A stretch of 64,000 bases of DNA from Pomphorhynchus laevis (taxonomy: Eukaryota; Acanthocephala; Palaeacanthocephala; Echinorhynchida; Pomphorhynchidae). The position numbers and the translations under genes are program-made. Of the stretch, positions 6,001 through 43,500 are shown piece after piece (positions within the stretch are counted from its first letter, which is position 1; the number at the start of each line of letters is the position of its first letter). The notes below the pieces were generated by a model. It had not been told where the DNA came from. It worked only from the letters and a program-made list of their open reading frames with translations, and ran no database searches. The stretch is from NCBI GenBank assembly GCA_012934845.2, contig WNNJ02000889.1, forward strand, positions 89,045-153,044, in the 5' to 3' direction.

Positions 6001-6600
6001 AATCAACGAATGAATCGAGTGCATGATGTACTAGAAAATCTCTAGTAACATCGTCTAGAGTACTGAATTAGCACTACAGCTTCACCAAACTGAATCATTA
6101 GCAAAAGCACTGGCAAATGCCAGCGCAAGTATCTTAATATCGGCTTACTTCTAATCACAAATGATGATACCATTCCGCGTGAATTTTTTTAGTAATCATA
6201 TAATCCCGACGCGAAAGAATGACGAATGCCGGTTCGTCATCACTATGGCTCCTCAGTGCCAGTTCCCTCCCACTGCTGGATGCAGAGGAGGACTGGCAGA
6301 CGTCAATCAACGAATGAATCGAGTGCATGATGTATTAGAAAATCTCTAGTAACATCGTCTAGAGTACTGAATTAGCACTACAGCTTCACCAAACTGAATC
6401 ATTAGCAAAAGCACTGGCAAATGCCAGCGCAAGGTATCTTAATATCGGTTTACTTCTAATCACAAATGGTGATATCATTCCGCGTGAATTTTTAGTAATC
6501 ATATAAGCCCGACGCGAAATGATGACGAATGCCGGTTCGTCATCACTATGACTCATCAGTGCTAGTTCCCTTCCACTCCTTGATGCAGAGGAGGAATGGT
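1..6600. repeat. 304-bp satellite DNA array, about 21.5 monomers
   Basis: Head-to-tail monomers start with 'attagcactacagcttcacc' at 1, 305, 609, 910 and so on, with a period of about 304 bp and small indels. The array is already running at base 1, so it extends past the left edge. At least two sub-types are mixed: one has 'atggctcctcagtgcc' and a shortened 'gatgcataggactagcag' (609-909, about 3,043-3,344), the other has 'atgactcatagtgcc'. Short open frames occur in several monomers on both strands, but stops and indels break them in neighbouring copies, so I do not call them genes. About 100 bp of each monomer matches one arm and the flank of the foldback element at 62,898-63,071. Confidence 0.97.
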
Positions 6601-11229: not shown

Positions 11230-11790
11230 AAATGATATCGAGGAAGCGAGATAATATAAATGTACATTATTGTATAATTTAAGCGATTATTTATGTAATT
11301 GACCTGATTATAAGGTAAAAAGAGATATAGAGACAGATATTGAGGAAGCAAGAAAATATAAATGTACATTATTGTATAATTTAAACGATTATTTATGTAA
11401 TTGACCTGATTATAAGGTAAAAAGAGATATAGAGACAGATATTGAGGAAGCAAGAAAATATAAATGTACATTATTGTATAATTTAAACGATTATTTATGT
11501 AATTGACCTGATTATAAGGTAAAAAGAGATATAGAGACAGATATTGAGGAAGCAAGAAAATATAAATGTACATTATTGTATAATTTAAACGATTATTTAT
11601 GTAATTGACCTGATTATAAGGTAAAAAGAGATATAGAGACAGATATTGAGGAAGCAAGAAAATATAAATGTACATTATTGTATAATTTAAACGATTATTT
11701 ATGTAATTGACCTGATTATAAGGTAAAAAGAGATATAGAGACAGATATTGAGGAAGCAAGAAAATATAAATGTACATTATTGTATAATGT
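11230..11790. repeat. 102-bp tandem repeat, about 5.5 copies
   Basis: The unit contains 'gaggaagcaagaaaatataa' followed by 'atgtacattattgtataatt', and successive copies are almost identical after a diverged first one. The period is a multiple of three and one minus-strand frame has no stop, which produces a 188-codon open frame (11,211-11,777) of five 34-residue blocks rich in Tyr, Ile and Leu. I treat that frame as a by-product of the repeat. Confidence 0.95.
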
Positions 11791-19910: not shown

Positions 19911-22095
19911 TTTTTTTTTAAGAATAATAACTTTATTGAAAAAGAAAAGTAAATTTTACAGAAATTAGGTTCCCGTCGCGCATTCGCAGACATAATTAGA
20001 CTTCGAGCACAGCGCAAAACTCGCTGTGGTGGGTTGTCATAAGATTAATAGGTTTGGAACAGCTGGAACGTGGCGAGCGTAAGCATGCGGAAACTGATCG
20101 TGCGATTTCAAAACTGATGTCTCGTTTCATCTTTATGGCTAGATCAGAATAAGAACGCGTTGACCGATGCGTCAGTTTTGAAGCCGTGGTTTTGATTAAT
20201 CTTTCCGCTTCAATGCCCATTCCTCCCGAAGTGGAGAAAATAAGAGGTATGAAAGACCCTCGTTCAACTAGCGCAATCCGTTCACTGTATTTGGCTTTCT
20301 TGCGACTCTCGTTGTATTCGAAAACAGACTCAGGCTTCCTTGATATGTTCGATTGAGCAGGTGCAGCAAATACATTAACATCAAAAAATGTTCGCTCAAA
20401 TCGACTACCGTGTAGCCCGGAACAAACTATGTCAAGACGCGCGCTTGGATCACGGGTTGTTGTTGTTCGTTCGAAAGTAATATTTTCAGGAACCTCGGTT
20501 AGCTGAGGTTCGCAAGCTACGCCGTGAGATATGCGACTAAGATAGTGTGAGATGATGTCGCGGACTGCATTATGCCGGATCGAAGGCAAAGCACCTCGTC
20601 TACATGATAAGGAATGAGCCACACTGACTCGAGTGCCGCAAATGCAGTTGCTAACTCCAATCTTAGGATCAGTATGTCCATACCTTGCGTTCAAAGCATC
20701 CCTGAATTCGTTCGAAGAAAGATGAAAATTTTCATGCTTGAGCGGAAGCGCACTTAACCACGAAGAAGCTCCACTGCGAGCAGCATGCGCGATCAGATTA
20801 CTGGTTGCGGGTATCGCTAAGATCGGAATTTTAGAGAGGCGTTCTTGGTGCGATAGTGATCGTAGTGTCTTGATTTCGCTAAGCATAGTTTTCTGCCTCT
20901 CTCTTAGGCTATCGCCACCTGAACCAGAATTATAGGTTGAAATTAGCATGTTTGAGGATTTGCGTTCAAGTGTGGCTATGGTTGCAGGGTTCGCGATACC
21001 AATACCTCCAAATTTGAAAGGAGAGCACAATATTGACTTCCAGTCTTCATCGAGGTCCCAGGACACGAAGTTTGGGAGAAGCTGTGTGATTAAAGTGTGT
21101 GACAGATCCGACCAGATAGTGGCTGAGCAGTCGCAGGTGCGCATTATGTGTGTCCACTTAAATTGGACGGAGTTGATTAATCCTGCAAAAGCGACATGCG
21201 GATCTACCTTGGCAACATAATCGAGACGTTGCAGCATTGTGGTCCATGTAGACAGAAGTTTTGCGGTTGCTGCATTTACAAAATCGTTGGACCCGACTGG
21301 ACTGCCGAGAATGATGATTCCATCGGTGGAAGTTTTTATTTCGGGGTCGGGGAGGTTCGATTGATCAATATGAAGGTGTGATAGGAGGTGAGACTTACGT
21401 GTGTTTACGAAATAGCCATACTTTGGTCCATCGGTATGAAGCACTTCCCATACCTGTTTCAAAACGTCAGTGGTCCCAATAAAGTTGGCGTCATCTGCAT
21501 ACCATTTTTGGAAGACCGACGGAACTTTGCGTTGAATTGCTTTTATCAAAGGGAGAGAGGTCAGGGCGAAGCCAGCCATCGCAAAAGGATCGCCCTGGGT
21601 GAAACCTTCGGTGGAGTATAAGCTTTGACTTCCCACAATGAGTTGTGCAGGGTTTGCGTAGACATTACGAAGAGCCCGAGAAAGCGACGGGCATACGAAA
21701 TCTATGTTGTGTAATGCCACCGCTCTGTTTGTTCGGTTGAAAGCATTTGAAGCATCGATTGACAAAATACAGCGGTCGTCGTGACGGTTAAACTCATCTC
21801 TAAGTGTGCTGATGGCGACTTCGATACCGCCTTTTTGAGAAGCCCCTAATTGAACGGACCCAGCAACGTCCTGAATGTCATTGCGAACAATATCTAGAAT
21901 GGCCCGGCTTATAATGCGTCTGACAGTATTGCAAATACCTATGGGGCGGATTCCTCCTGACTTTTTCTCTAAAGCAACCAGACGGCAAGCGGTGAAAGCA
22001 TCTAAAGTTCCTGGAGTGAGTGGTTCTGTTGCGACGAGTGGTTCTGTTGAGTGGTTCTGTTGAGTGGGTGGTTCTGAGTGAGTGGTTCTGTTGTC
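19911..22095 (-). mobile_element. 5'-truncated LINE with RT and RLE-type C-terminus
   Basis: The element runs on the minus strand and ends in AATAAA (about 19,934) and a short A tract at 19,911-19,919. At its 5' side the coding frame runs into a small tandem repeat of 'gagtggttctgtt' units (about 22,017-22,095), where homology to known RT motifs stops. This looks like a 5' truncation with added filler. The coding part is described separately. Confidence 0.75.
19996..22080 (-). CDS. Non-LTR RT with zinc motif and endonuclease-like end
   Basis: The frame is open for about 695 codons; the first ATG is at 21,765, but coding clearly starts upstream of it. In order it shows: LTPGTLDAFTACRLVALEKK, GGIRPIGICNTVRRI (RT motifs 0-1); VQLGASQKGGIEVAI; LSIDASNAFNR (catalytic D); EGFTQGDPFAMAGFAL (QGDP); KWYADDANFIG (YADD); KTHL-like thumb; LGSPVGS; a cysteine-histidine motif CICGTRVSVAHSLSC with RHNAVRDI; then ARLDIVCSG...FFDVNVFAAPAQ...YSERIALVERGSF...FSTSGGMG. 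The last part has D...DVxVF acidic residues like a PD-(D/E)XK fold, as in R2/NeSL-group LINEs with a restriction-like endonuclease. All RT catalytic residues are present and no stop interrupts the frame, so decay is recent. The N-terminal DNA-binding region is missing. Confidence 0.85.
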   Translation of the reverse strand, partial: HSEPPTQQNHSTEPLVATEPLTPGTLDAFTACRLVALEKKSGGIRPIGICNTVRRIISRAILDIVRNDIQDVAGSVQLGASQKGGIEVAISTLRDEFNRHDDRCILSIDASNAFNRTNRAVALHNIDFVCPSLSRALRNVYANPAQLIVGSQSLYSTEGFTQGDPFAMAGFALTSLPLIKAIQRKVPSVFQKWYADDANFIGTTDVLKQVWEVLHTDGPKYGYFVNTRKSHLLSHLHIDQSNLPDPEIKTSTDGIIILGSPVGSNDFVNAATAKLLSTWTTMLQRLDYVAKVDPHVAFAGLINSVQFKWTHIMRTCDCSATIWSDLSHTLITQLLPNFVSWDLDEDWKSILCSPFKFGGIGIANPATIATLERKSSNMLISTYNSGSGGDSLRERQKTMLSEIKTLRSLSHQERLSKIPILAIPATSNLIAHAARSGASSWLSALPLKHENFHLSSNEFRDALNARYGHTDPKIGVSNCICGTRVSVAHSLSCRRGALPSIRHNAVRDIISHYLSRISHGVACEPQLTEVPENITFERTTTTRDPSARLDIVCSGLHGSRFERTFFDVNVFAAPAQSNISRKPESVFEYNESRKKAKYSERIALVERGSFIPLIFSTSGGMGIEAERLIKTTASKLTHRSTRSYSDLAIKMKRDISFEIARSVSACLRSPRSSCSKPINLMTTHHSEFCAVLEV

Positions 22096-24204
22096 AGTTA
22101 TGCAAATAATTTCTTAGTTATTTAATCAATTTTATTAGTTTTTCATCCAGTTTTAATTTTCAACACGTAAACTGTCAAATAGCTAATAGCGTTGAATTAT
22201 CTAAATTGCATCATTTACGATTAGTGGTAGGCATTGAAACAATATGTTTGACGATCTTTCTCTATGACATTATGCTGCTACTTGACAATCTGAATGCAAA
22301 TAATTAAATCTTTTGATTTTTTAGATGTATCATCATACTTAAAGTTTTTTTGGTAAATTTCGAAGCCATACTCTAGCATCATCGTTCTATCATACGCTGC
22401 TAAGTACCTCGTAGTTCCTCTCACCATAGCCTCTCTGGTGTTAATATACAATTAATTTAAGTTGTAGTTAGTTCATTTAGTGACGTACCTAATTTAATAT
22501 CTAAATTATCAAATAAATATTAAAATTTTTACATTTTAATCTCTATAGTTAGATTTCACTTTTGGACTACCAAATAATTTCACTAGCTCGACATTTTTAA
22601 TACATTAAAAAAGTTTTCCGAATAACACATTGCATTGAAACAATAGAAAGATTCGATTGATCGGAAACGTATGCAACTGACTTTATTTCATCAAGCTTCA
22701 ACTCATGAGATCAACAGAAGAATAATTGAGAAAACGAAAGCAACGCAACTCAATAAAAGTAAGTAAATAAAAATGTAATTGCCAATCAGAATTAGATACA
22801 AAACCCTTGATGAATTTCGAACCTATTTGACTTCCTGTTTAAAACAACGCCCACTTTGTAAATTGAAGCCACAGGTAACTGGTTGTAGCACAGTAAAACT
22901 TATTAATTAGACATCCCACTACTTTGCAATAGACACAGGCGCCATCTTCAGATCCACGAAGCATATAACCTGGATGGACGTAGATGCTAATTAGACATTG
23001 TTAAGATAATAAAGAACTTATCAGTAGCTCCGTCATGTAACCGAATTCACATAATTCTTCCAAACGTATTTGCGATCATGATAAACTTGTCTGAGACTAA
23101 GGAAATAAATGCATATAATTGTAGCACGCATTTCAAACATGATAAATTATTTGATTTATTATGAATGATTCTACAATAATGAAATATTTCAATTCAGTTA
23201 TTTAATCTGACGTGTTGAAGCTTGATGAATTACAGGCCTTTGCGTCGTTGTATTTGGTATTTTAAGCACAAAAGATAACGCTAGATGAACAAAAATAACT
23301 TATATTATTGTCCAATTATATACGTTGAATAGCTATTTACAAACTAAAAATGTTTGAATATTCACTATTGCTAAAATGATTTTTTATTAAATTAATAAAA
23401 AAAGTTAATTTCTTTAAATTAAGAAATTAACCAACATTTTAACAGTCCTCTAGAATCTAACGTGTCACATGGTGGTAATATAATCATTGAAATTTATACA
23501 AATCATACATGGGTTGAATTGACTCACCCATACCGGGATCCAAGAAAATCATTTATTTTACAGATATAAAATAAATAAAAATGTAAAACCATATTTTAAA
23601 AAACTATATTAATTTACTGATAAATGAGGGCTGATGGGGCAACGTTGCTAACGATGAATTTACGTGCTCTGAATTTACATTTACATTTATTGCAGTGTCT
23701 ACATTTAGGAATTTTAAATGTTACCTATTCTTGAAAACTGGAATGTGGGAAAGTATACGTTAAACTTATAAATGGACAAATATCAAATTTGATGAACAAT
23801 TTCTTAAATAAAGACAAATTTTAAATGCAAAAGTATTTTGCAATATCGTTTATTAATTATATTCATAGGTGCATTATCAAAATAAATATTCCAGATTTTT
23901 TTGTAAATTATTTTAATTCGCAATTTTTACTGTAAATCAAAAACAGGCAAAATTTGTATAAAAATGTTTGAACAAAAGTCATCAAACAAATGATTCATAT
24001 TCCGTATTTTCCTATATGAGCAACGCTCGTAGTATTACAGCATATTCTGCATCTTCTCATAAACGATAAAGAACTATAAGAGTAAAGGAATCTTTAAAAT
24101 TCGACAAAACCAATTATTACACGATAATGCAAATTAAACATCTAAATGCCATTTTATCAGCTAATATTTTTATCATCTAAATTGAAAGTGTTCAAATAAT
24201 ATTG
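22096..24204. other. AT-rich interval with a few short coding-like patches
   Basis: The minus strand has open, codon-like patches at about 22,340-22,440 (REAMVRGTTRYLAAYDRTMM) and 22,850-23,095 (LRQVYHDRKYVWKNYVNS, then GYMLRGSEDGACVYCK) with GT and AG at intron-like 44-55 nt spacing. I cannot join them in phase or name a family. Nothing else is recognised. Confidence 0.35.
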
Positions 24205-25553: not shown

Positions 25554-28500
25554 CTTGATTTAAAAGCAAATCACGTTAAACATAAAATCTTACAGGTATG
25601 CAACTTTAATATCAAGATAAATTAAAAATACAAGAAATCAGCAAATTAAACAACCAAGCGGCGAATTTCCGGATCACGCTACGTGTTCGCTTTTCTTACG
25701 ATTAAAGATTAAAAAGTATTGTGGAATTTCGAATCGATTTGTGATCATTTCTTCCATGATAAACAATCACAGCTGGCCTTGCAATGAGCAGAATGTCGTC
25801 TGTCAAGCATGCAAATGTGTACATTCTGGTAGTTCACGAATAAAGTGTCTACGGGCAGCAGTGGCTCTTACAGAGAGTAAACAGGTCACGAATTTTTACG
25901 AAGTAAACAGGTCCTAACAGTGTCATGAATCTTTACGAAGAACATGTGACTCTATTGTGTTATCAATACAACATAGATGGGCGAGTAAAAAAATATTTAA
26001 TATTTTAAGAAAAATATCCAACGACTTATTTTTCATTGATATTTTGTGCGGTGCATTTGCGTTAAAAAATTCACTCAAGGTGTAACAGAGCACAGAAACG
26101 AGCCTTTGCAGGTGATCTTGCAACAGGGAGTGGTAACTTCATGGGTAAGGATATATGTAGCGAGTGCGAAATATAAATTCCAACAGGCATAAAATCAAAA
26201 CTTACGGTTCACCATCTTATAAAAGTAGCGAAATAACCAAGTGGTTAATTGTCTCAACAACCTTTTCTCTTTAAGACTATTATTACAGCAAAATTCTCAT
26301 TTCCAGGATTTACACGATTCTCAGTGACATACACACATTTAAACCAGTGGCTTTCTTCGCCAAGTTTTGAGATTTGCTCACTCAATCTCTATCATATATC
26401 CTGTGTCTCTTAGCATGGAAATAAGACTGAAACAATTCGATGTCGGGTCGTGGGGAGAGTCTGAGAATTGACAAAGGCGTCACGATTCTTAGTGGCATAC
26501 ACACATTTAAATAACCCGTGGTTTTCTTCGCCAAGTTTCGAGATTTGCTCACTCAATCTCTATCATCTATCCTGTGTCTCTTAGCATGGAAATAAGAATG
26601 AAACAATTTGATGTTGGGTCGTGAAGGGAGTCTGATAATTGCCCAAGGCGTCACGATTCTCAATGGAATACACACATTTAAATAGCCCGTGGTTTTCTTC
26701 GCCAAGTTTCAAGATTTGCTCACTCACTCTATACTATCTATCATGTGTCTCTTAGCATGGAAATAAGACTGAAACAATTTGATGTCGAGTCGTGAAGGGA
26801 GTCTGATAATTGCCCAAGGCGTCACGATTCTCAGTGGCATACACATTTAACCAGATGCGTTCTTCGCGAAGTTTTGAGAGTTGCTCATTCTATCTATACT
26901 ATCTACCCGGTATCTCTTAGCATAGAGATAAGACTAAAACACATTCACGTAAAAAAGCGTCCACTAGACATCCCCAGAATGTCCTAGACACATCGACCAA
27001 CATTCTTCAATGTGAAGAGCAGCAGTTTTAGTTCGAAAATTTTGCAGATGGCTAAACTATCTGGCTGGAAAGCTCGAAGCGGCTGAATTACGAGCACCTC
27101 ATTTCGGTCGTATGTACCCACATATTGTTTTTGCGGCGGTTATTACCCAATATTCATGAAGATAGATTAAGACAATAACGAAAATTTAGCGATAAATAGA
27201 AAGCGATGGATGAAGGCTTAGCGTCCGCTTTACCATGTCAAATATGTAAATATCGGATAACTTAACTGAAGATACATATTTTGTAATGTTTATAAATAAA
27301 AATGTAAGTATTTCAATCTTAACAAAATTTATAACTCAGAATTTTTATATACTGAATTATAGAAATTAAAGCATGTATTTAAATAAAGATTGGTACTCAA
27401 AAAATATAAGTTCAGTATTGACTGATTAGATGAACTGTCAAGGCCGTTCGAAAATCATTGAGAAATTGAATAACTGGAACGTAGTCTACGGGCTGGACGA
27501 AATCCACTGTTCTTTCCTTACAACTGTCCCTCAGTTGTAAGGCTTACGCTCTTAAGGCTTGTCTGAGCCTTACGCTCTTAACCAGATCGAATTACTGTGA
27601 GGACAATCCTTAAATACTAGGCAGAGGTTGTTGTTGAATTGTCGCTGCACTCGTTGGATCCTTAATGAATACGGCAGGTATAATAGTAGTGCACGGATGT
27701 GCTGAGTAGACAACGGTCCAGGATTTCTTTCGAAATACGGCATTTATACTAAATGGTGTTGCTTGATAGACTGGACTTCGATTCACGACTTTCAGTGACC
27801 ATGTCACTTCTAGACGACCAATGAGTACCAGGCAACACTCATCAGTAAAATGAAGTACTCACTGGCTGTTTTCGGTTGCCTGTGTGATATTGTGAATAAA
27901 GGCGTTTCCGACACTTTGCTTAATTGTCTTAGGCTTAAGCTCTATCAAGAAACACTATTTAGTATAAATGCCGTATTTCGTAAGAAATCCTGGACCGTTG
28001 TATACTCAGCACATCCGTGCACTACTATTATACCTGCCGTATCCATTAAAGATCCAAAGAGTGCAGCGACAATTCAGCAACAACCTCTGCCTAGTGTTTA
28101 AAGATGGTCCGCGCAGCAATTCGATCTGGTTAAGAGCGTAAGCCTCAGACAATGAAGCAAAGTGTCGGAAACGCCTTTATTCACAATATCACACAGGCAA
28201 CCGAAACAGCCAGTGAGTACTTCATTTTACTGATGAGTGTTGCCTGGTACTCATTGGTCGTCTAGAAGTGACATGGTCACTGAAAGTCGTGAATCGAAGT
28301 CCAGTCTATCAAGCAACACCATTTAGTATAAATGCCGTATTTCGAAAGAAATCCTGGACAGTTGTCTACTCAGCACATCCGTGCACTACTATTATACCTG
28401 CCGTATTCATTAAGGATCCAACGAGTGCAGCGACAATTCAGCAACAACTTCTGCCTAGTATTTAAGGATTGTCCTCACAGTAATTCGATCTGGTTAAGAG

Positions 28501-31500
28501 CGTAAGTCTCAGACAATTAAACAAGGTGTCGGAAACGCCTTTATTCACAATGTCACACAGGAAACCGAAACGGCCAGTGTGTACTTCATTCTACTGATGA
28601 GTATTGCCGGGTACTCATTGGTCGTCTAGAAGTGACATGGTGACTGAAAGTCGAGAATCGAAGTCCAGTCTATCAATCAACACAATTTAGTATATATATT
28701 GTAGGTTTAATAATTTAAATAATATTACGATATTTTTAATATCGTAGCCAGCTTTGCAATAAAAATCAATGGTAGCCAGCTTTTCCTCATAGACCACAGC
28801 TCCAAGTAATTTTTCTCAATGACAATTTATAAAATGACGCATTCCTTGTGGAATCCTGTGAGAAATTCAGTGCCCTCATAATCAACGGATACGCATTTGT
28901 GCCTTATATAAAGAAAAACTAGAAGGTCCACACACGCAACAAGCCAGTAAAAACGCTTTCTGCACCTGAGCTTGGTATAGCATTGTGAGGAATTGCTGGT
29001 GTCTTTATAGTTATCATAAAAGCAGTCGAAACGTACCCTAACCACTTCATCCTACTGACGATGACTGCTGGGTGGTTAGCAACGTCTCGGAGTGATACAT
29101 TAGACTAATGAAGCTGATAATCGAAGTTCAGTTATTTAGCAGCAAATATGGATTAAAAATCAATCGTAGCTAGCTGTGACTCCTGGACCACATTTTCAAG
29201 CGATTTTTCGCAATAACAATTTATAAAATGAGGCATTCCTTGTGGAATCCTGTGAGAAATTCAGTGCCCTCGTAATCAACGAATACACATTTGTGCCTTA
29301 TATAAAGAATAACTAGAAGGTCCACACACGCAACAATCCAGTAAAAACGCTTTCTGCATCTGAGTTTCGTATAGCATCGTGAGAAATTGCTGGTGTCTTT
29401 ATACTTATCACAACATTAGTCGAAACGTACCCTAACCACTTCATCCGACTGACGATGACTGCTGGGTGGTTAGGAACGTCTCGGAGTGATACATTAGACT
29501 GATGGAGCTGATGATCGAAGTCCAGTTATTTAGCAGCAAATATGGATTAAAAATCAATCATAGCCAGCTTTGGCTCCTGGACCACAGTTTCAAGCGATTT
29601 TTCGCAATAACAATTTTTATATATAGTAAGTATAAATTAAAATCAATTTATAAGCTACTTCGAGTTATACAGGGTCTTTCAAGTTCGAGTTTCTTTTTTA
29701 AAAATGTATTGTTCTGACAACTATCACTGTTTCAAAAAACTTTTTTTTCAGATATCAAGTAGAAGGTTCACGATTTACTGAAATGGATTGTATGTCACTT
29801 GAGAACCGTATAAACAATAAAAATCCACAACGAAAATGGTGGAGCAGTAAAAACAACATTTCGCAAAATTGTCCACATTTTTTGTCGATATAATCGTCCA
29901 ACGGAGCTAAGAATAAGGAAGTTGGTCGAAAAATTTAAGTCGACTGGATCGGTACAAGACAGAAGTACACCAGAGCACAATCGTCCGATGCGTTCAGCTA
30001 AAAATATCGCTGCTGTTCGCGAAAGCATTGAGGAAGATAAAAATTTATCGATTGAACGATGTTTACAGCAATTGGGCCTATCTGCAACCACCACATGGAA
30101 AATTTTGCGTCAGGACTTAGTTCTCAAGCCTTACAAAATTCAGCTGATGCAAGAGTTGAAGCTGAACGACCATCAGCAACGTCGACAATTCTCTGATTTT
30201 GTTCAGCAACAACCTCATGATTTTGCTGAAAAAATCATCTTTACAGATTAAGCCCATTTTCATTTGAATGGCTGTGTGAACAAACAGAATTGCCGGATTT
30301 GGGCACTGGAAAATCCACAGCAGTATATAGAGAAGCCACTACACTCCTCTCGTGTAACTGTTTATTGCGCATTTTGGTATGGTGGAGTCATTGGACCGTT
30401 TTTCTTCGAGAACGCATATGGAAATACGCTTACTGTCAACGGACTGCGATATCGGGAAATGCTCACAACTTTCTTTTACCCTATTGTTGATGGCGTGGAT
30501 ATGGATGATATGTGGTTTCAACAAGACGGTGCGACATGCCATACAGCCAATAAAACAATAAAGCTATTGGAATTGAAATTCAAGGGAAAAATACTCTACC
30601 GAAATGCAGACACAAATTAACTCCCAAGATCTCCGGATTTAACACCTTTGGATTATTTTCTGCATGGCCATCTTAAAGACGGTTTATGCTAACAAACCAG
30701 AATCAATTAAAGCTCTAAAAAACAACATTCGCCGCGAAATTAAGGAGATATAACCACAAGTAAGCGTTCCCGCGGTTGGCATTTACACGATATCGTTTAT
30801 CATTTTTAAATTATAGAACGTGTACTATACATCGACAAAAAATATGATTTTACTTTCACAATGTGTGCTTAATTCCAATTTTAAAAAGAAACTCGAACTT
30901 GAAAGACCCTGTATATATAATTTGATGTTATGATTAATGATTATAAAATCATCCCGTTCATCTTAAACAGTGATCAAGCTTTGAACACTGTTTAAGCGTG
31001 TGTTAAGGTGCCTATGAATGATTATTGAAGTCACGGTAATGATGAGCTCCGTTAGAGCGAAACGCGTCTACCGTTGTGGAAGTTTGTCATCACATATAGG
31101 ATGACTGGGCATACGTAGCGACTTTGAATATTGCGAGAATAATTCGGTTCTATTTCTTGGTATGAATAAGATATATAGAATGCTGCCTGGTGTTAATGCC
31201 TCCTGGTGGGGAAAATATAGTGATTTATTTATAAGTACACCATTGTGTGTCCCAGGGCAGGTGTAACATCAAATTATATTTTATATATTTGTACACTTTA
31301 AAGTGTCCCTGTAAAACAGCATTTCTATTAAAAGGAATTTAGTGCCTGATGCATGGTTAAACTGCAACACGCACCGCCATGCACAGAGCTTATGCTAAAT
31401 TTCCTCTGATGATTCAGATTAAGGGTAGTTATGTTTTTCGAGCTTTATACATTGTTTAAGCGTGTGTTAAGGTGCCTATGGATGATTATTGAAGTCACGG

Positions 31501-34500
31501 TACTGATGAGCTCCGTTAGAGTGAAACGCGTATACCGTTGTTGAAGTTTGTCGTCACACATAGGATGACTGGGCATACGTAGCGACTTTGAATATTGCGA
31601 GAATAATTCGGTTATATTTCTTGATCTGATGAGGATATATATAATGCTGCCTGGTGTTTATGCCTCTTCATGAGGAAAACAGTGATTTATTTACGAGTAC
31701 ACCATTGTGTGTCCCAAGGCAGGTGTAACAACAAATTATATTTTATATATTTGTACACTTTAAAGTGTCCCTGTAAAACAGCATTTCTATTAAAAGGAAT
31801 TTAGTGCCTGATGCATGGTTAAACTGCAATACGCACTGCCATACACAGAGCTTATGCTAAATTTCCTCTGATGATTCAGATTAAGGGTAGTTCTGTTTTT
31901 CGAGCTTTAGACATTGTTTAAGCGTGTGTTAAGGTTCTTATGGATGATTATTAAAGTCACGGTACTGATGAGCTCCGTTAGAGCGAAACGCGTATACCGT
32001 TGTTGAAGTTTGTCGTCACACATAGGATGACTGGGCATACGTAGCGACTTTGAATATTGCGAGAATAATTCGGTTCTATTTCTTGGTATGAATAAGATAT
32101 ATAGAATGCTGCCTGGTGTTAATGCCTCCTTGTGGGGAAAACTGTGATTTTTATAAGTACACCATTGAGTGTCTCAAAGGCAAGTGTAACATCATAATAT
32201 ATTTTATATATCTATACACTTGAAGGTGTCTCTGAAAAACAGCATTTCTATTAAAGAGAATTTAGTTCCCGATGCGCAATACGCACCGGGAACTACGCAT
32301 CTGGTTAAACCGCAATACGCACTGCTATGCACACAAAGCTAATGCTAAATTCTATCTGATCATTCAGATTAAGGGTAGTTCTGTTTTTGAGCTTTAAACA
32401 CTTTTTAAACGTGTGCTAAGGTTCCTATAGATGATTATTGTAGCCACGGTACTGATGAGCTCTGTTAGAGCGAAACGCGTCTTTCGTTGTTAATGTTTGT
32501 CGTCACAAATAGGATGACTGGGCATACGTAGCAACTTTGAATATTGCAAGAATAATTCGGTTACTAAATATATTAAATTGTTCGCCAGGAGAACACGTGT
32601 TCGTTGTTTATGCCTAATAAATATTTATATATAAGATGATTATTAAATATTATTAAACTTGAAATACAAAACTGATCGTAAATTGGAATGTACGATTTGT
32701 AATTATCGAAAGAAACATCAGCTATAAAGAATTACCAGAAATGTGTTACTATATTATCTGTGCCGAGATTATTTCTGATAATGTATCGTTTGCTACAGTC
32801 ATATACACCAAGTTCAACACCTGTAACAATGCTCTGTCTTTGGAATGTTTGAATCGATCCCTCAAGTTAGAGATAAAAACAAAAATTAGCAAATCTGTGT
32901 TGTTTATATTCACTCTATAGAGTCCCAAAAAACCTTCCTTTTGGTAAATATTCACGAAGTAGGCAAGAAGGGACATTTTCGGGCCGCTTTTTGTTGTTTT
33001 GGCAGCTTGTAGACGAACCTATGATACAAGCAATTATTTAAACATTTAATCGAATTAAAAAGGAAGTATATAGTAAGTATTCATTTCTGAATAATGCTAC
33101 AAAAATCAGTTAAGAAACGTTTCGTTGGTAGATACATTGAACAAAAGCGAAAATTACGAATCAATGTTTTGTTGTAAAAATCGTAATTTTTCTTCGTTCA
33201 GATCAATTAAAATAGTTATTTTGATATGAATATAAATGCTTAAAATTAACTTTTGTTTCATTCTTCGATATAAATTTAGATAAAGAATTAAATTTATTGC
33301 GATTCATATTATTACGATATTCTTTAAATTCACGATAAATCTTTTCGATAATAGTGAGCAACACGTCTTGGCAAAACAGCATAGGATACAGACATTATGT
33401 TATTTACTACAATAATATATATATTGAAAATCATAACTTTTACAGATCGTAGACTGATACAATACTGTCTTTCCTGAATCAGCATCTACAATTCTTTCAT
33501 ATTTTGCTTCTTTATACGTTTTCATTCAATATTTGAGTATCCGAACAAAATATTATTTGTCATCTTCAAAATTCCTCAACGCAGTTTTCCGTAGACCACC
33601 TCGCGGCGCTTCAATTATGAATTCGCTTCCGACAGTAGAAGTATTTAAGGAATTGTATCGTTTACTATGCGAAGTGCTGGCTTAAAGATACCTTTGCCTG
33701 ATATTTTTGATTTTACAATTGATAGGTGTTTTGAACTGCATCGTTTGTGCACGATATCGTTTGTGTGGGTTTATCTTTGAAACGTTTAACAGCTATTTGT
33801 TTCTATTATTTTCTTTAATGTGACTTTTGAAGGTCATCATTCCGAGCAGTGTAGTAGCACTGGGAGCACTATTGAGTAATAAATTTTTTGGTTGTAGTGA
33901 TATATTTTTATTTGGATTCAGGAGACTGAAAGTTGCAGTAGCCTTTGAAATCCGGTTCATCACCTTTGTGCCACCGATACAGATGTTGGATATCACAGTA
34001 CCTAAGTAGCCAAATGTGCGAACATTTTCAATCACATTGTAGTCCTTAATTTTGCATTATTAATGACATATAGACAGTACGAGACACTAAGATCTTTAAA
34101 AAACACAACATCCTCGTTAAAAATTCAGTGATTCAAAATAATTGACAAATATTATGACGATTTACGCTGTATAAAGCCACCTTGAAATTCAGGAACGCAA
34201 AAATAGTTTGCTAACGAAATTTCGATATCAATTCCATTAAGATACGTTATGCGAATATCTGATATATGCATTCCCTTTGTGATTAAAATGTAGCCTGGTA
34301 TTGTCTTAGCTGAGTTTCTCTGGAGGGACTTATTCTGCTAAAGATGATCGATTTATCATTTTATAAGGCACTGATAATTGTGAAATAGCCAGATAATTTG
34401 AACATTTATTAATGTAACTTTTCTTATTTAGAGCTGTTTAGTTAGTTTGATCAGTTAGTATGATTTAATGTGCTTAGATGCCTTTGAACAATTTGTACAA

Positions 34501-37500
34501 TAATGTATGTCTAGATGAGCCACACTCTCTAAGTATCTCAGGGAAACTTTGGTCTGATCCACCGTGCCCCATGGTTTGACATCCAATGCCTACTCTAAAA
34601 GCGTCGACCCCGTCATGCATTTCGAGACTATCATCGCTCTCTCAGATGTGATTTCCACTCGATCACTCTGTCTTCCCGTGATTCCTATCTTGCCATTCGC
34701 CGGTCTCATCTCAACCTACTACGTACCAAATGCAACTTTTTCTGACAGCATGAAATCATCACTCCATTCAACTCTAAGACAATCTGGCATACTTTAAACT
34801 CAATCCCTTGCTCGCTCCTCTTCGCCTTGCAACATCAATCCCCATGATTATTCTTCATTTCTCCAGACCAAAGTATCCACGTTGCTCTCTCACACCCCGA
34901 TCTCCATCCTATCCCACTCTGCCCAGCCTAACCTCATCCTCCCGGAACTCTTTAATCTTCTCCATGTCTCACCTACCGAAGTCTCATCTGTCCTCATGTC
35001 CTTGTCAACAAAACCTCACATGCCCATCCCCTGCCTATTCACATACTTAAATCCATATGCTCATCGATATCCCCTTTTCTCACAACCTTGTTTAACTCGT
35101 CCATCCGCAGTAGTATCTTCCCTTCACACTGGAAATCCGCAATCGTTCGTCCCCTTCTTAAGAAACAATCGCTCGACCCCTCCCTTCCTGCTAGCAATGG
35201 CCCCATTTCACTACTCTCTACTCTTTCTAAGCTCTTAGAACGCCTCATCTTAATACAGATCAACGCTTAACCTTACTCATCTAATCTGTACCCCCCTTTC
35301 CAATCCGCTTTCCGCTCTAATCACTGCACAGAAATTGCCTGCATGAAAGTTTACAACGACTTACTAATTTCTCGTGACAAGACTCTATATGGTGTTCTCA
35401 TCTCCCTCGACCTCTCCTCCGCCTTCGACATTGTCGACCACTCCGTACTCCTTTCTCACCTTTGTTATGATTATGGCTTTTCTTCCTCCTCCGTAGCATG
35501 GTTTGCCTCATATCTATTCGACCGTTCCTTTCGCGTCTGTTCTAATTCATCATCCTCCCCTCCCATCCCTATCTTTTGCGGGGTCGCACAAGGTTCAGTT
35601 CTAGGTACCCTGCTTTTCTCTCTACTACTTGGTGATCTCTCTCCGTTTATCAAACCTTTTTCCTTTAACGTCATGCAATACGCCGATGACATCATCATCT
35701 ATGATCATGCACCCGCACATCGCATACACGATAGCGGCATTTCTGCCTCCAACTGTCTTTCTTTTATCTACGAACGTCTATCTAATCTCCATCTCGTTCT
35801 AAACCCCGACAAGTCTAAAATAATGTGGATCCTCCCCCGTAAACCAAACATATCACCTACCACTGTATCTTTTGCCTCATCGATCATCCCCATAGTACAC
35901 AATCTCACTTTCTTAGACTTCCATTTCGATAATCACCTTTCCCTTAAACCCTTCGTCCGTGACAAGGTCCGCCGTTCGAGTGCTCTATCGTCTTCGTAGC
36001 TTTGACCACGCATCCACACATCTAACCCAACTCGCATGGCCCATTATCTACATCCGCCTCCAACTCCGCCTTCTAATAACTTTTCGTCTAACCACTGTCG
36101 GCTCCCATCGTTTATCAATCTTCCTTTCTTAGACGACACTCGCCCTACCTCGCTATCGCTGCGTTCCCGTCATACCCTCATACTCCACGTTCCCAATCAC
36201 TCCAACAACTATGGTTTCCGATCCTTTCTCCTCGCCGCCCCACTCTCCTGGAATCAACTCCATCTCGACGTCAGCCGAGCTCCCTCCTTTATCACATTCA
36301 AACGCCTCCTCCGTTCACCTTCTCGACACATGATTTTCATTTTTGTTTTGCTGTGGTCATGTAAGCGTGCGCTGGCACGCATTTGTCACATTATTATTAT
36401 AGTGTACAAGTTACTAGCCGCAAATGGCTGTTTCAACTGTTCACAAATTACATTTTAAAATATCAATTAAAATACATCCACGAATCCAAATTAGAGTTCA
36501 CAATCCACTTCAGCAGCATCTTCTTGAAGTGTCTATTGCTAGTAGCATTGACGACGTCTTCAGGCAGCGAATTCCAAACATTCAATGCGCGGTGGGAAAG
36601 CCTACTCACACTCCTTATTTTGCCACCTGAAATGATCTCCCGTCCAAAAAATCACGAATCCAATTGCATAACATGGAGGATACTCCGTAGTGTGCTAACA
36701 ACCTAATCATCCCATCATGAGGGACGCGATCGAAGGCTTTCGAAAAATCAATAAAGATTATATCGAGTGAGCTACCAAAACTTAACGACTGGGTCCAAGT
36801 TTCGCGCGCGGTAAGCAAGTTCGTCAAACAAGAACGGGAGTGACGAAAACCATGTTGAGCGGACGATAGTATACCAAGAGAGACAAGATGATCGTAGACT
36901 CTAGTGCTGATGGCGCGTTCGAGAACTTTGCACAGAGAAGAGGTTAAGCTTATTGGCCTATAATCACCACATGATGATGCAAAAATTTTTTTGGGAATAG
37001 GAACAACGGTTGCAGTTTTCCAATCTTCTGGGACACTGCCAGTGGCCAGAATTTTATCAAAGATAATAGTCAGGAATGGTGCCAGGTAACTCGATAAAGC
37101 TTTGAGCAGGTATGGGGAGATGTCATCGGGGCCAGCTGCGCTAAAAGGACGAATATTATTGAGATAATCTTGAATTTCAGTAACGCAAATTGGCCGGGAT
37201 TCATTACGCGGAGGGATAGAGCACCCGTACCATATCATATGAGAATCGCAATGTGGTAAAGTGGATAAAGAGAACGAGGATGCGAAGGTCTCAGCTATAT
37301 CAGTTTCATTTGTAACCAAGCCACATTCAGAGTGCACATGCTTGATTGCAGAGTTGAGCGTTCCGTTTTGCCGAGCATATGACCAAAATAGCTTGGGGTT
37401 GCGATTAACTTCCTTGATGATTGTAGATTCGAATTTATCACGTTTTAACGTTTTCATACGAGTACAGACGTTCCTAAGATACCTATAAATGTTGGCGTAA

Positions 37501-40500
37501 TACGGAAGCGAACGAGATAACTTCCAAAGACGATTTCGTACTCGCAACATCAATCTCAGGTCCTTATCGAACCAAACAGGATATTTAGTATTTGGCGAGA
37601 TGATACGCTTTGGTGCAAACACGTCAGAAATACCTAAAAGGTAATCCCCAATCACTTTTAGTGAGACTTCTTTAGTATTTGTTAAAGATAGTGGACGACG
37701 TTGACAGAAAGATAAAATTTGCTCATCAAGCACTTTTGACCAAACCCGTTTTACGATGGGAGCCGTAAAATGGCGGAATTTAAAGTTTGGGGTGACCTGT
37801 AGTGATAGCACGCAGTGGTCAGAGTTACCTATCGGTGGAAGATAATCCACTCGAGCTATGTCTTCAAGACGTTTGGAAAAAACCAAGTCAAGTATAGTAT
37901 CATTATTATGGGAAGAAAATCGTGTGGGCTCTTGAATGTGTTGTACTAGTAAGAGTTCATCAGCGAGGAAGTGGGAGATTTCTCTTTCTACGACGGTGCC
38001 ATCATCAAATATTGTTTGCCGCCAATCTGATCTAGGTAGGTTGAAGTCTCCTAGAAGAAGGAAATGAGAACTGATACTTATCGATCGCAATACTGACTTC
38101 AGAAGATTACAATCAGTGATCATAGAAGGTGAGCGATATACAACGCAGAGACTGATACCAACACGATCATACCCAATATGAAAGGTAATACTCTCGAACG
38201 AGCCTTGCGGATCACAAACTTGATCGATGCCAGAAATTAGCAAATGGTCTCGAACGTACACTGCAACACCGCCCCCTCGCATACTGGACCTCCTGTCCCC
38301 TCGAAGTAGACGATAACCTGGAATATTTACAGTGGCATCCAAGATGTGTTCATGTAGCCATGACTCACTAACACAGAATATATCATACGCATTAACCTCA
38401 ACATGGTATCGAAGCTCTACAAGTTGTGCAGGAAGACTTCGTAAATTTAAATAACCTACCGATAAATAGCAACGAGTTGCATTGGAATCCTTTTTGGTTT
38501 TACTAAGGCACGGTCTATCAAATACAATCAGATACCCTAAGGAATGGTCAGTGTTCTCTGAATTTACATGGAAACAGGGGTCCCGACAGTTAAAGGAGCC
38601 AACTGTTTCCAACGTACGACAGGACGCCACTTGACAACCCGAAAATCCCGTATGCATATATTAGCCTCACCTTGAGAAAGCCGGTGTCTCAATTCGATGT
38701 TTGCTTTTCGTAATTGTAATCGCTCATCTGGCGAAAGGTCACGAAGGATACGAAATGGCAACCCCCTAAGACGATATCCACGTGATAACAACACGCGCAC
38801 ATGATCACTAGAGGACAATATCACCTTCAACAGTCTTGGTTTCTCCTGTGTTCTTTTACCAAGCCGAAATAGCTTCTTCACGTGTATAGACGATGCTAAC
38901 TCTTCATCACCTTCATGCAATAGATGGGATAATACCTTACGCAAAATAGACACGTCATGGTCCATATGTTCCTGTGAGTTTGCGGAATTGGACTCAGTAA
39001 GTTCGCTGAATAACACGCTATATGACCTGTCATAATGATGCCGAGTTATCTCAACCGACTTCGCATGTCGAACTTCACTATTTTCTGTAGGGGAAAAGTT
39101 CGATGCTATATGGGTTGGGGATCTGTTGTCTGAAGACGTGCACAAGCTGGACGACGAATTTGCTTGGACACTGGTGTCATTGTTGTCGATAATTGGCTTA
39201 TCACATGGTGCAACATTTATAAGAGCATGCTTTGAATTCAATGAAGTCCGTAAAACACTGTCGCCCATCCGGCATTGAGGCTCAACTTCAATGTTGGAAC
39301 TTGTGGCATTTACTACTGATTTAGGAGGCAAGTAAATCTTTTTTATATTTAATATTTTTTATAATAAATCCTTTTTATATTTTTTTATTAAAATATAAAA
39401 TTTATGGGAATAATCGTTTTAAACAGCTTTTTCCACTTGATTTGCTAAATCCTCCGAAAACTTTCTTGTTATTGCGGATACTTTATTTTAGTTTCTGTGT
39501 GAGATTTATTTGTTTTATTGCGACTACAAGCTAATGTTTTGTTTGTGCTGATCATATATTGTCATAGTCGTTTTGCCGATCCGCTGATTTCTGTTGATAT
39601 ATTCTTGGGTAGTAGTTCAGAAGTCGTTGAAAATATTGCGTCACGAAGACGCATCAATTTCATTATGATGTCTAACGGTATATTTAATATATTTAGTTGT
39701 TTTGATATGTTATTTTGGAAGTTAAACCTAATATGTTCGTCCATCAACACACGGGTGTATATAGCGAGAACTCACTTTCGTAAGTGTTTTGAATAAACTT
39801 GCAGTCGCTGTAACTCATTCCTATTAGAAGTGATAAGTTACTACATCTATGCCTCAATATAATCTGTAGTAAGTTATTAAATTCCTCCACCTGCTCCGAA
39901 CGAGAATGTAGTCAAGTTGATTTTATCTCAGATCATTCGGAAACTCCACGTCTCGAGGTGACACTTTTATACTGGAAAGTCGTATTCATTTCAATGAAAT
40001 TGTATTATAGCAACGTGTTTATGAGTTTCACACCATATCGGCATAATATTTCGATCGCATCTTGACGACGAATAGTTAAGTGTGTTCGATAATCTATAAA
40101 ACCATTAAAATCAACTTTGACAGCAAAGAAGTCACAGGAGGGTATGTTGGATATGATTATGTCTAACTCATTATAAAATCGATCAGCACTTGTTTGTGGT
40201 GACGAGTTTATCAGATCATACACACGAAAATGGTATTTTTACTATATTTTCTCATAACGAATTGAGACCAATATGTCTTAAATAGATATATAATCTATGA
40301 CATACAAGCCAAATCAGAACGAACGATGATAGCCACGCCGTTCAATTCTGAGTTATCTGTCGGACATCATAATATGTAGTATAACATGTCCCAAACTACT
40401 CTACCTTTTTTTGGCGTCTGATCCTTCCTTATGGCTGCTCCTCTATCGTGGAATCATCTGCACATTCATATACGCCAATCAACCACCCTGTCATGCTTTA

Positions 40501-43500
40501 AACGCCAAATCCGATCCCATTTAAACAATTTAATTAATTTATCTGTGTGACTTTTGCTCTTTTGTGTTAGTTAGTGGACTTGTAAGCGTGCAGCTGGCAC
40601 GCATTTGTCACGTTAAATAAATTATTATTAATAATATTGACAGCATAAAATTGAATGGTGGGGTCTACTATCCATGCTTGTGTGTTAGCCCATTTCGGTG
40701 ATGAAATTTTTTAAAATATGGATGCTGCCAATGTTCACCACCTTCATAACACACAAGCTGGTTGTCAAAGACTGTTTATTCGACCAAACTAGGTTAGCCT
40801 ATCTCGCAGTTAATTAATAAATAATTAGAATAAAATGTAATTGAAATTTTGTGTGCATGAAAAATGCTTTTCTTTTAACTTTAAATATTTGATCTTTACG
40901 ATTGATAATCGATTTAATAAATGTTTAGAAATTAACAATATTGATAAAGAGAAAGTCTAACAAGTTGCACGAATTGTTGAAGCAGCTGGAATGATTTTCA
41001 GTAAAAGCCATTTTATAGCCAAATTCTCAGTAAACTCTACAGTTAAGCTTAAAACCGAATTCCGAAAGCAAAATCTCAGAAAATGATGAATCAGTTGTTG
41101 TAGCCCACAAGAATATACTATTTTTGTAGAGGAGGAATGCATGCTTGCAATCGTTGCTCTATTCGGAATGCCGAATGTTCATTTTTCTTTAAAAGTGGAC
41201 ATTACGCGAAGGTTTGCGAAATTGAAAACGTTTCTTTATCGACAAGGAAACAGCCGAAACATCTGACCGTACACATTCGACAGTGAATCTTTCAATCGCG
41301 TTCTTTGCCAGATCATCTAAACTAGACGATCTAATACTTCACAACTTAATTATCTTGTCTTACTCTTCTTATCAATTCTGAGACCAGGTAATTAAGAGAC
41401 CAGGTAATGGCCAATAGCCAGGTCGCGTAGCGCGTGGAGTGAAGGTAGTAGATCTTTATAGATCTTGTTCCAGCCTACAACGCATTAAGCAACGCAACCC
41501 CTGTCAGATGCTGCTGGATGGCCCGTTGTAAGTTTAGTCTGAGTCAACTAAACTAGGTGGCGACACCGAAAAAGCAACGTTAAAAATTATGACTTAAAAG
41601 TTACATGTACTCAACCAGATTGGAAAAATACGTAAGTACTAATGATTTCAATTTTAGATCTTTTAAATGTAACAGAAAAAATGTATAGTTTGTGATGTTA
41701 TAAATAATAATTGTATTGTAAGTAATACGACAAACAAATGTTTTTCATTAAATATTAATAATAATTGTAACTGCAATACCGCAGGTGTAGTGTATCTAAT
41801 ACAATGCACATGTGGATTGCAATATATAGGAAAAACATATCAAATGTTAAAAACTAGGTTTAGGCAACACATATATAATATACAGCATAATAGTCAAACT
41901 ATATTTCATAAACATATGAGATTAATAGGACATGATATTAAAAACTGTAAATTATTTATTTTAGAACATATTATCGAAGAAAACATATCAATATTAAATC
42001 AAAAACTATTAGAAAAAGAAGATTTTTGGATTAAAACGCTTAATTCCATGTACCCATTAGGATTGAATGACGTGGTACAAGGAATTGGCAGAAGTAGTAT
42101 AATACATAATAAACAACTATATTATAATAATCCGGTTAAACGCAAACCAAGAAGTCATGGTGATAAAAGGAATAGGAAAAATAGAGTTAAAAATATTAAA
42201 AAAATATGTATATAAATGAACAATTAGAAATATTAAAACAACTTTTAAGTGATAATAAGCTAAAAGATCTTTATGTAAATATAAGAAGTTTTTCTAAAGA
42301 TATCATATGTTCAATAAATCAAAAATTAATTAACGACTATGATAGGCTAAGTTGTATAATAGACAGTTATTGTAATACAAAATACTATAATCGTACAATA
42401 AATGTTAATAATAACAATAAAAAATATACACTGACCAAAAATTTTATTAATAAATGTATAGATAACATAAATATAGGTGGACTTTTAAATAATTCTAAAA
42501 GTATAGAAATAATAGGGTCAGATTTAAGTAAATATATTCCTAAAATAAGGTATAAACTCTTATTACCATTAGGACAAGAAATTTGTAATTATAATAAAGA
42601 ATAGAAAACTATATGTAACGATGATATAAAAACATTATAGAAACAGAATGCAATTACAAGTCTTAATTTTGATAAAATAAATGAACATATATGCACTCAT
42701 AATCAAGAATTAATTAAAAATAGTGAATTAAGGAAAATGGTATCAAAAGTGTATAAATATAAGTTAACTAATAATAACAATAAAAATAAAATTTATAATT
42801 CGTTATATAATGACTTAAATGCTTACTTTGTTAAGCTGATTAAAAGTAAAATCTTAAATACATCAAAGATAAACATTTAGAACACTTATATATAAAATTA
42901 AAAATAAAATGAAAATAACAAACAATTATAAAAGGAAAGATAAAATTAATAAAGATATGTATAAAGAACTTACTAAATTAAAGGATAACTATATAATAAC
43001 AACTATTGATAAAGCTAGTAATAACTTTGTCTTCATATGCAAAAAGCTTTATTATGATATACTAATGAAAGAGGTTAATTCTAATGATTTAAATGTAAAT
43101 CCAACATATGAACGTAGTGAGTTGAGTTTAGAAACAATTATTACAAGTCACTGTTCTATAATGGATAAAAAGGGTATAAAGGTTGAATTAGATAATAAAA
43201 CTATACCTATATTATATTGGAATCCAAAAGTTTATATGAATAAAATACTTAAAGTAATTATAACACACTTTTAAAAATATTGTAGGATAATCGAAATTAT
43301 TTTAGGATATTATTTTAGGATATTATTTTAGGATAATAAATAATATACTTTGTATTAGAATAAGATACTATATAATCAAATTTAATTAGTGGAAATACGT
43401 CCTTTACTCCTATTTGGCCCCGCTGTTATGTTGGGTAGAGGAATTAGAGGCCGAAATCTGATAACATTGCAGTTCCTCCTGATAACCTCGAATCTTTATT

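Follow-up and report, generated by a model that had tools for sequence, protein, structure and literature searches.

The 64-kb window analysed here, positions 89,045 to 153,044 of contig WNNJ02000889.1 (assembly GCA_012934845.2) from the acanthocephalan Pomphorhynchus laevis, carries on its plus strand a tandem array of hammerhead ribozymes belonging to a dispersed family of retrozymes. The family bears on which machinery moves animal retrozymes, because many of its copies within a single genome preserve the insertion step. Within the window the array is ordinary; the family is informative because its insertions record where copying starts. From comparison of sequences across the genome, we propose that the window array is quite probably one insertion of a non-autonomous, non-coding retrozyme mobilized by Penelope-like machinery.

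The array and its landmarks are as follows.

30974..32566, plus strand: retrozyme array of three full units (464, 462 and 487 bp) and a partial fourth, from Tandem Repeats Finder (TRF), spacing and alignment to the family consensus
31033..31074, plus strand: hammerhead copy 1, C3 changed to A, predicted inactive; H17 is C, and the cut would follow 31068 (pattern scan, stem comparison)
31497..31538, plus strand: hammerhead copy 2, intact core, G-U at the base of stem II; predicted cut after 31532 (pattern, descriptor)
31959..32000, plus strand: hammerhead copy 3, intact core and stems; predicted cut after 31994 (pattern, descriptor)
32446..32487, plus strand: hammerhead copy 4, intact core, stem I with one mismatch and one wobble; the cut would follow 32481 (pattern scan)
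31526..31531, plus strand: ACGCGT, palindromic helix III of copy 2, with the identical hexamer in all four copies (sequence, fold prediction)
31677..31695, plus strand: zone S2 (monomer q240–258) in copy 2, corresponding to a 3′ end favoured among dispersed copies
31737..31753, plus strand: zone S3 (monomer q300–316) in copy 2, the equivalent of the second preferred 3′ end

A pattern scan of the window, in which up to three mismatches were allowed and a match is placed at the first base of the CUGAUGA box, returned four hammerheads, all on the plus strand, at 31039 (one mismatch) and at 31503, 31965 and 32452 (none). Shuffled windows gave a mean of 0.26 matches, and none of 100 shuffles contained four. 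TRF reported a tandem repeat at 30977–32563 with a period of 462 and 3.4 copies, and successive hammerheads are spaced 464, 462 and 487 bp apart. These results bear out the first-pass annotation, which had described four tandem hammerheads at a spacing of about 465 bp; the spacing measured here is about 463 bp. Its account of the individual copies also stands: every core position is present in copies 2 and 3, with a G-U replacing G-C at the stem II base of copy 2; stem and core comparison recovers the C3-to-A change of copy 1; and the damage to stem I of copy 4 amounts to one mismatch and one wobble. An independent descriptor scan of both strands of the window recovered copies 2 and 3; copy 4 was picked up only under an alternative pairing, and there was no further hammerhead in the 64 kb. 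Alignment to the family consensus sets the limits of the array at 30,974 and ~32,566, where it ends at q ~177–179, q being the position along the unit 31438–31899; homology past ~32,566 is not significant, 30 of 500 shuffles scoring equally well. The longest frames within the array, both on the minus strand, are 70 and 88 aa from stop to stop, and a check for target-site duplication at this array alone found only short words common to its flanks, the longest 9 nt.

With two positions left free, the core pattern has 636 matches in the 249-Mb genome of 3242 contigs (314 and 322 by strand); the window array, being one of hundreds of such places, needs no local explanation. The features found—a type I hammerhead with intact core, genome-wide dispersal and the lack of any frame longer than 88 aa in the window copy—are those of an animal-type retrozyme without long terminal repeats (non-LTR), a known kind, LTR features having been no part of the search. 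Loci were sampled from the first 100 of the 636 places. A first sample comprised 20 loci, 11 of which had been selected because of their spacing or because matches lay on opposite strands; a second comprised 20 more in list order, with orientation not used. A fresh sample of 10 loci came from the 40 best matches to q320–458, a part of the unit remote from both the ribozyme and the end zones; the window itself and two sites close to contig ends were excluded. Together with the window these make 51 loci, of which the 20 in list order and the 10 fresh ones form an orientation-neutral set of 30.

Long frames between the arrays of loci L011 and L010 match reverse transcriptase, that of L010 below cut-off. 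The 2.5-kb frame between the retrozyme pieces of L011, flanked by AAGAATGAT and AAGAATAAT, was set aside as a long interspersed nuclear element (LINE)-like element lying inside the array. In a viral collection there was no match to a retrozyme 28-mer; the sole match to the general hammerhead pattern, at 11485–11575 of viral locus L001, has by eye a long helix III and was set aside as unrelated.

Insertion ends and their flanks

Ends were defined from chained BLAST segments, 80 bp being the minimum length. Of 65 3′ ends in the first 41 loci (the 40 of the first two samples and the window), 44 fell within S2 and S3, against 2 of 66 5′ ends; the zones were drawn from these same loci and together occupy 7.8% of the unit. 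With the zones fixed beforehand, they took in 11 of 13 3′ ends in the 10 fresh loci (p 4e-11 versus uniform). By set, the proportions were 21/31 in the first sample, 23/33 in the list-order sample, 11/13 in the fresh sample and 0/1 in the window, and over all loci 55 of 78 3′ ends lay in the zones versus 6 of 80 5′ ends (Fisher 4e-17).

The flanks beyond these ends are rich in alternating TA. Within 40 nt of the end, a (TA)4 run was present for 40 of 78 3′ ends and for 8 of 49 outer 5′ ends, compared with 5.1% of 5000 positions drawn at random from these loci. An AT-rich target is thus present, although the tract may or may not predate the insertion. Exact-pattern junctions into (TA)n, counted genome-wide, numbered 85 at S2, 65 at S3 and 2 at S1, a stretch near q198 (GGATATATAG) that is one of the two 7-nt alternating TA runs of the unit. 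Despite its 7-nt run and its 707 intact occurrences in the genome, S1 accounts for just 2 junctions, so it is chiefly position in the RNA that determines where copying starts. Pairing with TA alone as the determinant was rejected: S1, with the better match, is almost unused, and S2 has no alternating TA run above 3 nt.

The ends that cleavage would produce go unused. No 5′ end among 80 lies at q93–99 and no 3′ end among 78 at q92–98, while 73 of 81 segments contain an alignment spanning the cut site. The ends of cut RNA thus leave no clear trace, and these two observations point to circles or uncut multimers as templates. None of the 3′ flanks has a poly(A) run of 8 within its first 25 nt.

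Many insertions consist of two arms in opposite orientation. Counting as head-to-head any pair whose 5′ ends lie within 30 bp of one another, we found 18 such pairs in 17 of the 51 loci, versus 2 tail-to-tail pairs; 12 head-to-head pairs, in 11 loci, and both tail-to-tail pairs come from the 30 orientation-neutral loci. Where both 3′ ends fall in the zones, 9 of 10 pairs mix one S2 with one S3 end (half expected, p 0.01), a proportion that becomes 10 of 12 when gaps of up to 400 bp are allowed (p 0.02). All 7 scorable pairs of the orientation-neutral loci are mixed (p 0.007); two of these, L045 and L059, have one arm shorter than 80 bp. The arms of the pairs in L013, L015 and L050 share sequence, which means that one stretch of the RNA served as template twice. 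At the head-to-head joint of L014 (1468–1550) the two arms form an almost perfect hairpin; with 56.2 bits against a microRNA family (cut-off 59.2), it is a possible source of false annotation.

Ribozyme fold and a second family

Helix III of the hammerhead consists of ACGCGT only, that is, one A-U pair and a palindromic CGCG cap. A self-duplex of the hexamer is predicted at -9.5 kcal/mol, and the best fold of a 49-nt piece containing copy 3 is more stable by 6.3 kcal/mol than the same piece folded as a single hammerhead. Because helix III is palindromic, as in newt and axolotl, cleavage would probably occur as dimers, with single copies weak; the axolotl HHR_Amex1, with the same one-pair helix III and palindromic cap, is described as cutting poorly alone and well as a dimer (PMC7229834). 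The release of 462–487-nt monomers that the first-pass annotation had foreseen remains plausible in its lengths, 462 and 487 nt fitting the predicted cuts at copies 2–3 and 3–4; the annotation had overlooked the helix III palindrome, with the dimer cleavage expected from it, and the presence of such arrays at hundreds of places in the genome.

Across the 51 loci, ACGCGT is carried by 98 of 111 hammerheads. Position 17 is occupied by A in 87 of the 111, by C in 22 and by G and U in one each; 97 of these hammerheads come from the window and loci chosen by exact core, and 14 from loci chosen otherwise. Among the latter, from 10 loci selected without reference to the ribozyme, the core is intact in 9 and core and stems are kept in 8. 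Covariation within the family is confined to isolated double changes. The family consensus folds as a circle at -124.3, compared with -106.5 ± 5.2 in 60 single-letter shuffles; one linear unit gives a z of -2.0, 1 of 100 dinucleotide shuffles being as stable.

At the gathering threshold Rfam gave no match in the window. With the threshold relaxed, Hammerhead_HH9 was placed at copies 3, 4 and 1 with 19.1, 17.1 and 16.9 bits (gathering 52; E 0.17–0.83) and copy 2 remained unmatched, so that the refuting outcome named in the first-pass annotation, no Infernal hit at copies 2–3, is almost reached at Rfam's thresholds. The reduced helix III may explain the low scores (16.9–19.1 bits). We attribute this failure to the limits of the Rfam models, because a sister family passes the cut-off and the stems covary between the two families.

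This second family, a tandem repeat with a 296-bp unit, was met in locus L056 at 2862–3895, again with head-to-head arms. Three hammerheads there match Rfam Hammerhead_1 at 41.2, 41.2 and 37.3 bits (cut-off 34), and a 24-mer of the family has 89 exact matches in the genome. Relative to window copy 3, both partners have changed in one stem I pair and in two stem II pairs, with pairing retained, and the remaining seven compared pairs are identical; all 10 are thus kept. Pairs were counted by segment, MAFFT having placed the helix III loop gap in stem I. Since three stem pairs changed on both sides yet stayed paired, structure, beyond sequence alone, has been conserved between the families. Helix III is likewise palindromic (ACACGTGT). 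The 3′ ends of the second family, from five loci and too few to count, comprise three near f2 288–296, one ~57 nt further and one at 273.

Mechanism, helper and competing explanations

From the internal start sites, the optional tail and the head-to-head arms, we infer mobilization by Penelope-like machinery, and a course of events may be sketched. Retrozyme RNA would be cut by its type I hammerheads, probably as dimers held through the ACGCGT palindrome, and the resulting 462–487-nt units would be ligated to circles or left multimeric, as the known family suggests. A Penelope-like reverse transcriptase would then start inside the RNA at S2 or S3, ~55–60 nt apart, at the sites that the 3′ ends mark, and would do so from a DNA end within a (TA)n tract such as those seen in the flanks. 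Copying would run backwards past the hammerhead cut site, sometimes for several rounds, consistent with the segments that span it, and would halt anywhere, leaving scattered 5′ ends. In many cases both DNA ends would be extended, with S2 as the start for one and S3 for the other, and the two copies would be joined into the head-to-head structures observed. The window copy would then represent an old insertion into an intron, in antisense orientation. Generalized, animal retrozymes may be satellites of Penelope-like elements, in which a dimer-active hammerhead is combined with a two-site start module that is copied from both ends of a (TA)n break, one site each, giving head-to-head twins and tandem arrays in one event; we regard this broader proposal as evenly balanced between right and wrong.

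Several observations weigh against this mechanism. Outside the S2 and S3 zones lie 23 of 78 3′ ends, and in the fresh loci 4 of 14 5′ ends fall within them. The window array, ending at q ~177–179 without (TA)n, does not itself bear the signature. A single 5′ end lies at q92, three bases off the cut, and circles and uncut multimers predict identical junctions. At the S3 junction there is a 5-nt TA run, with one of 7 nt next to it, so pairing may help the start there; the published Penelope-like element starts at a site that lacks homology to its target (PMC11167929). In loci chosen without the ribozyme, the excess of ribozyme conservation is not significant (20/588 versus 186/3641, p 0.08). The arrays look old, because distances between copies are lower within arrays (6.6%) than between them (9.6%) and the nearest neighbour often lies in the same array (9 of 33, versus 2.05 expected). 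Finally, the one resident Penelope-like family whose junctions were examined differs from the retrozyme in its pattern: it ends mainly at a single site, u185–187 (11 of 18 ends), and its printed flanks contain no (TA)4 run.

Turning to the helper, Penelope-like elements are abundant in this genome, with 150 matches scored of 5082 candidates. The abundant family, the one whose junctions are described above, is of the permuted kind known as Naiad; it has a 908-aa frame in locus L041, forms tandem units of ~3.52 kb elsewhere in the genome, and is represented in the window by one copy.

41392..43247, plus strand: degenerate copy of the abundant Penelope-like family, 94.7% identical to the unit of locus L038; candidate helper type

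Pfam found no domain in the 908-aa frame, and it is named Penelope-like from the GIY-YIG look of its N-terminus, from a same-family copy in L074 that matches the GIY-YIG model, and from relatives that carry GIY-YIG or reverse transcriptase domains. A descriptor search found no hammerhead within the unit of this family. The possibility that the retrozyme is part of this family was set aside, there being only short matches in five loci, the longest 30 nt at 90%; that match adjoins the Penelope-like element in L038, where a retrozyme piece abuts. The idea that the retrozyme is itself a Penelope-like element was rejected, no frame in the window copy exceeding 88 aa. The piece in L038 (2038–2088) ends near zone S2 directly before the Penelope-like unit. 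The Penelope-like 3′ ends that abut retrozyme in L014 and L017 were taken as insertions into the retrozyme.

A GIY-YIG search for other helpers gave 75 matches, of which three loci were inspected and discarded as candidates: L072 is an apparently bacterial contig, L074 holds the same Penelope-like family, and L073 belongs to another family, with a further GIY-YIG frame of another kind by reading of its frames. Scans of the three found no retrozyme or hammerhead. Locus L072 (contig C1660) looks bacterial from a full-length transfer-messenger RNA match (149.9 bits) and a 458-aa GIY-YIG frame resembling UvrC.

Four other explanations were weighed. The one that survives best, though we consider it distinctly the less probable, is that the family is a dead relic, old and without present cleavage or movement, its window copy having no effect; as history it overlaps the explanation we prefer. 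Copies diverge from one another by several per cent, damage is seen in copies 1 and 4 of the window, and core and stems persist in just 8 of the 14 hammerheads from ribozyme-independent loci. Some matches to a 139-nt part of the unit are nevertheless 99% identical, and the core pattern is kept at 636 places.

Movement by LINE-type machinery with twin priming is unlikely. LINE-like frames exist (window 36615–38660 and the L011 insert), and twin priming also produces inversions. In twin priming one end of the insertion corresponds to the 3′ terminus of the RNA, whereas both outer ends here often lie at the same two internal sites, and neither a poly(A) run nor an end at the ribozyme cut was found.

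A little less likely still is a satellite that spreads as DNA through unequal crossing-over and re-insertion of excised DNA circles, with the hammerhead a passenger. The units are tandem, contig C487 holds at least 20 core matches, most at ~463-bp spacing, and copies are more alike within arrays than between them; unequal exchange may lengthen long arrays. Excised DNA, however, would break randomly at both ends, whereas the 3′ ends gather in two zones and only the 5′ ends are scattered, nor does this model predict head-to-head joints whose 3′ ends point outward. Mobilization of the retrozyme by Penelope-like machinery remains the reading we prefer.

The last alternative involves the gene around the array, of which the following pieces were recognized.

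~48,075–47,911, minus strand: host carrier gene, Mito_carr (42.9 bits, above the Pfam cut-off of 22.3)
33,018–32,914, minus strand: host carrier gene, Mito_carr, on the 5′ side of the array-bearing intron (20.6 bits, below cut-off alone)
25,558–25,490 (14.1 bits) and 25,326–25,198 (20.2 bits), minus strand: host carrier gene, pieces of the third repeat lying 3′ of the intron, each below cut-off alone

The frame running downward from 34,998, scanned whole and including two sub-cut-off Mito_carr pieces, scores 30.2 bits (E 4e-7, cut-off 22.3), and the best solved relative of the first carrier exon is uncoupling protein 2. Since Mito_carr matches on the minus strand flank the array on both sides, it would lie antisense in a carrier-gene intron between 32,914 and 25,558, as far as these domain pieces tell; the placement given in the first-pass annotation is upheld, and its reading of the array as a whole is supported in part, with the observation itself confirmed. 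That an antisense self-cutting transcript tunes this gene is very improbable: the intronic position would allow it, but hundreds of similar places exist elsewhere and nothing was found that links the array to the carrier gene.

The window holds other repeats and mobile elements. A Tc1/mariner-like transposon fragment, named from the look of its frames (Pfam finds a helix-turn-helix domain only), lies just upstream of the array at 29,814–30,620, and tandem duplications of 364 and 394 bp adjoin the array at 27610–29616, one short frame recurring on both strands. A 304-bp satellite occupies 1–6599 (21.8 copies, 95% alike) and continues past the left edge, and a 25-bp tandem repeat is present in 14 copies at 57711–58060. 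Long frames with reverse transcriptase domains occur at 19996–22113 and 36615–38660, the second also with an endonuclease domain.

Comparison with known systems

The retrozyme kind is already known, and what is new here is the insertion pattern of its copies; a literature search of titles and the starts of abstracts found no report of such junctions, which is not proof of absence. As described in the portions of PMC7229834 drawn on here, animal non-LTR retrozymes share with the present family a type I hammerhead, short tandem repeats, low GC, non-coding sequence, dispersal, coexistence with Penelope-like elements and self-paired RNA. The unit of 462–464 nt (spacings to 487) is slightly above the ~170–400-nt RNAs and 150–450 bp quoted there, and the insertion step, which is given there as a model, is described here through its junctions.

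The kinship with tandem ribozyme repeats of newts and other animals that had been suggested for this array is supported. Newt and axolotl repeats (HHR_Amex1, PMC7229834) share the one-pair helix III, the palindromic cap and the expected cleavage as dimers, with a unit of ~330 bp there; the comparison is by description. The pDo500 repeat of Dolichopoda cave crickets (PMC2837043), compared in the same way, is likewise a hammerhead repeat, of ~500 bp, for which single and double forms are proposed, and is described as a satellite.

Penelope-like elements have been proposed as the likely helpers of retrozymes from co-occurrence and shared hammerheads (PMC7229834, PMC7761336, both as excerpted), and the junctions reported here may be counted as evidence for that proposal. 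According to PMC11167929, purified protein of an Anolis Penelope-like element cleaves both strands of AT-rich DNA, extends each of them and begins copying at two neighbouring sites within the RNA; the stretch between the sites forms an optional 30–40 bp tail of genomic copies, and a hammerhead upstream of them is dispensable in vitro. Rotifer Penelope copies have head-to-head arms with a tail on one arm, and hammerheads go unmentioned in the excerpted account (PMC3846280). With the elements so described (PMC11167929, PMC3846280) the retrozyme shares two internal starts, an optional tail, an AT-rich target and head-to-head arms, and as in the Anolis element its start sites lie downstream of the hammerhead, ~150 and ~210 nt past the cut. 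The tail is longer, ~55–60 compared with 30–40 bp (PMC11167929). Penelope-like elements encode a reverse transcriptase and a GIY-YIG nuclease, whereas the retrozyme encodes nothing known.

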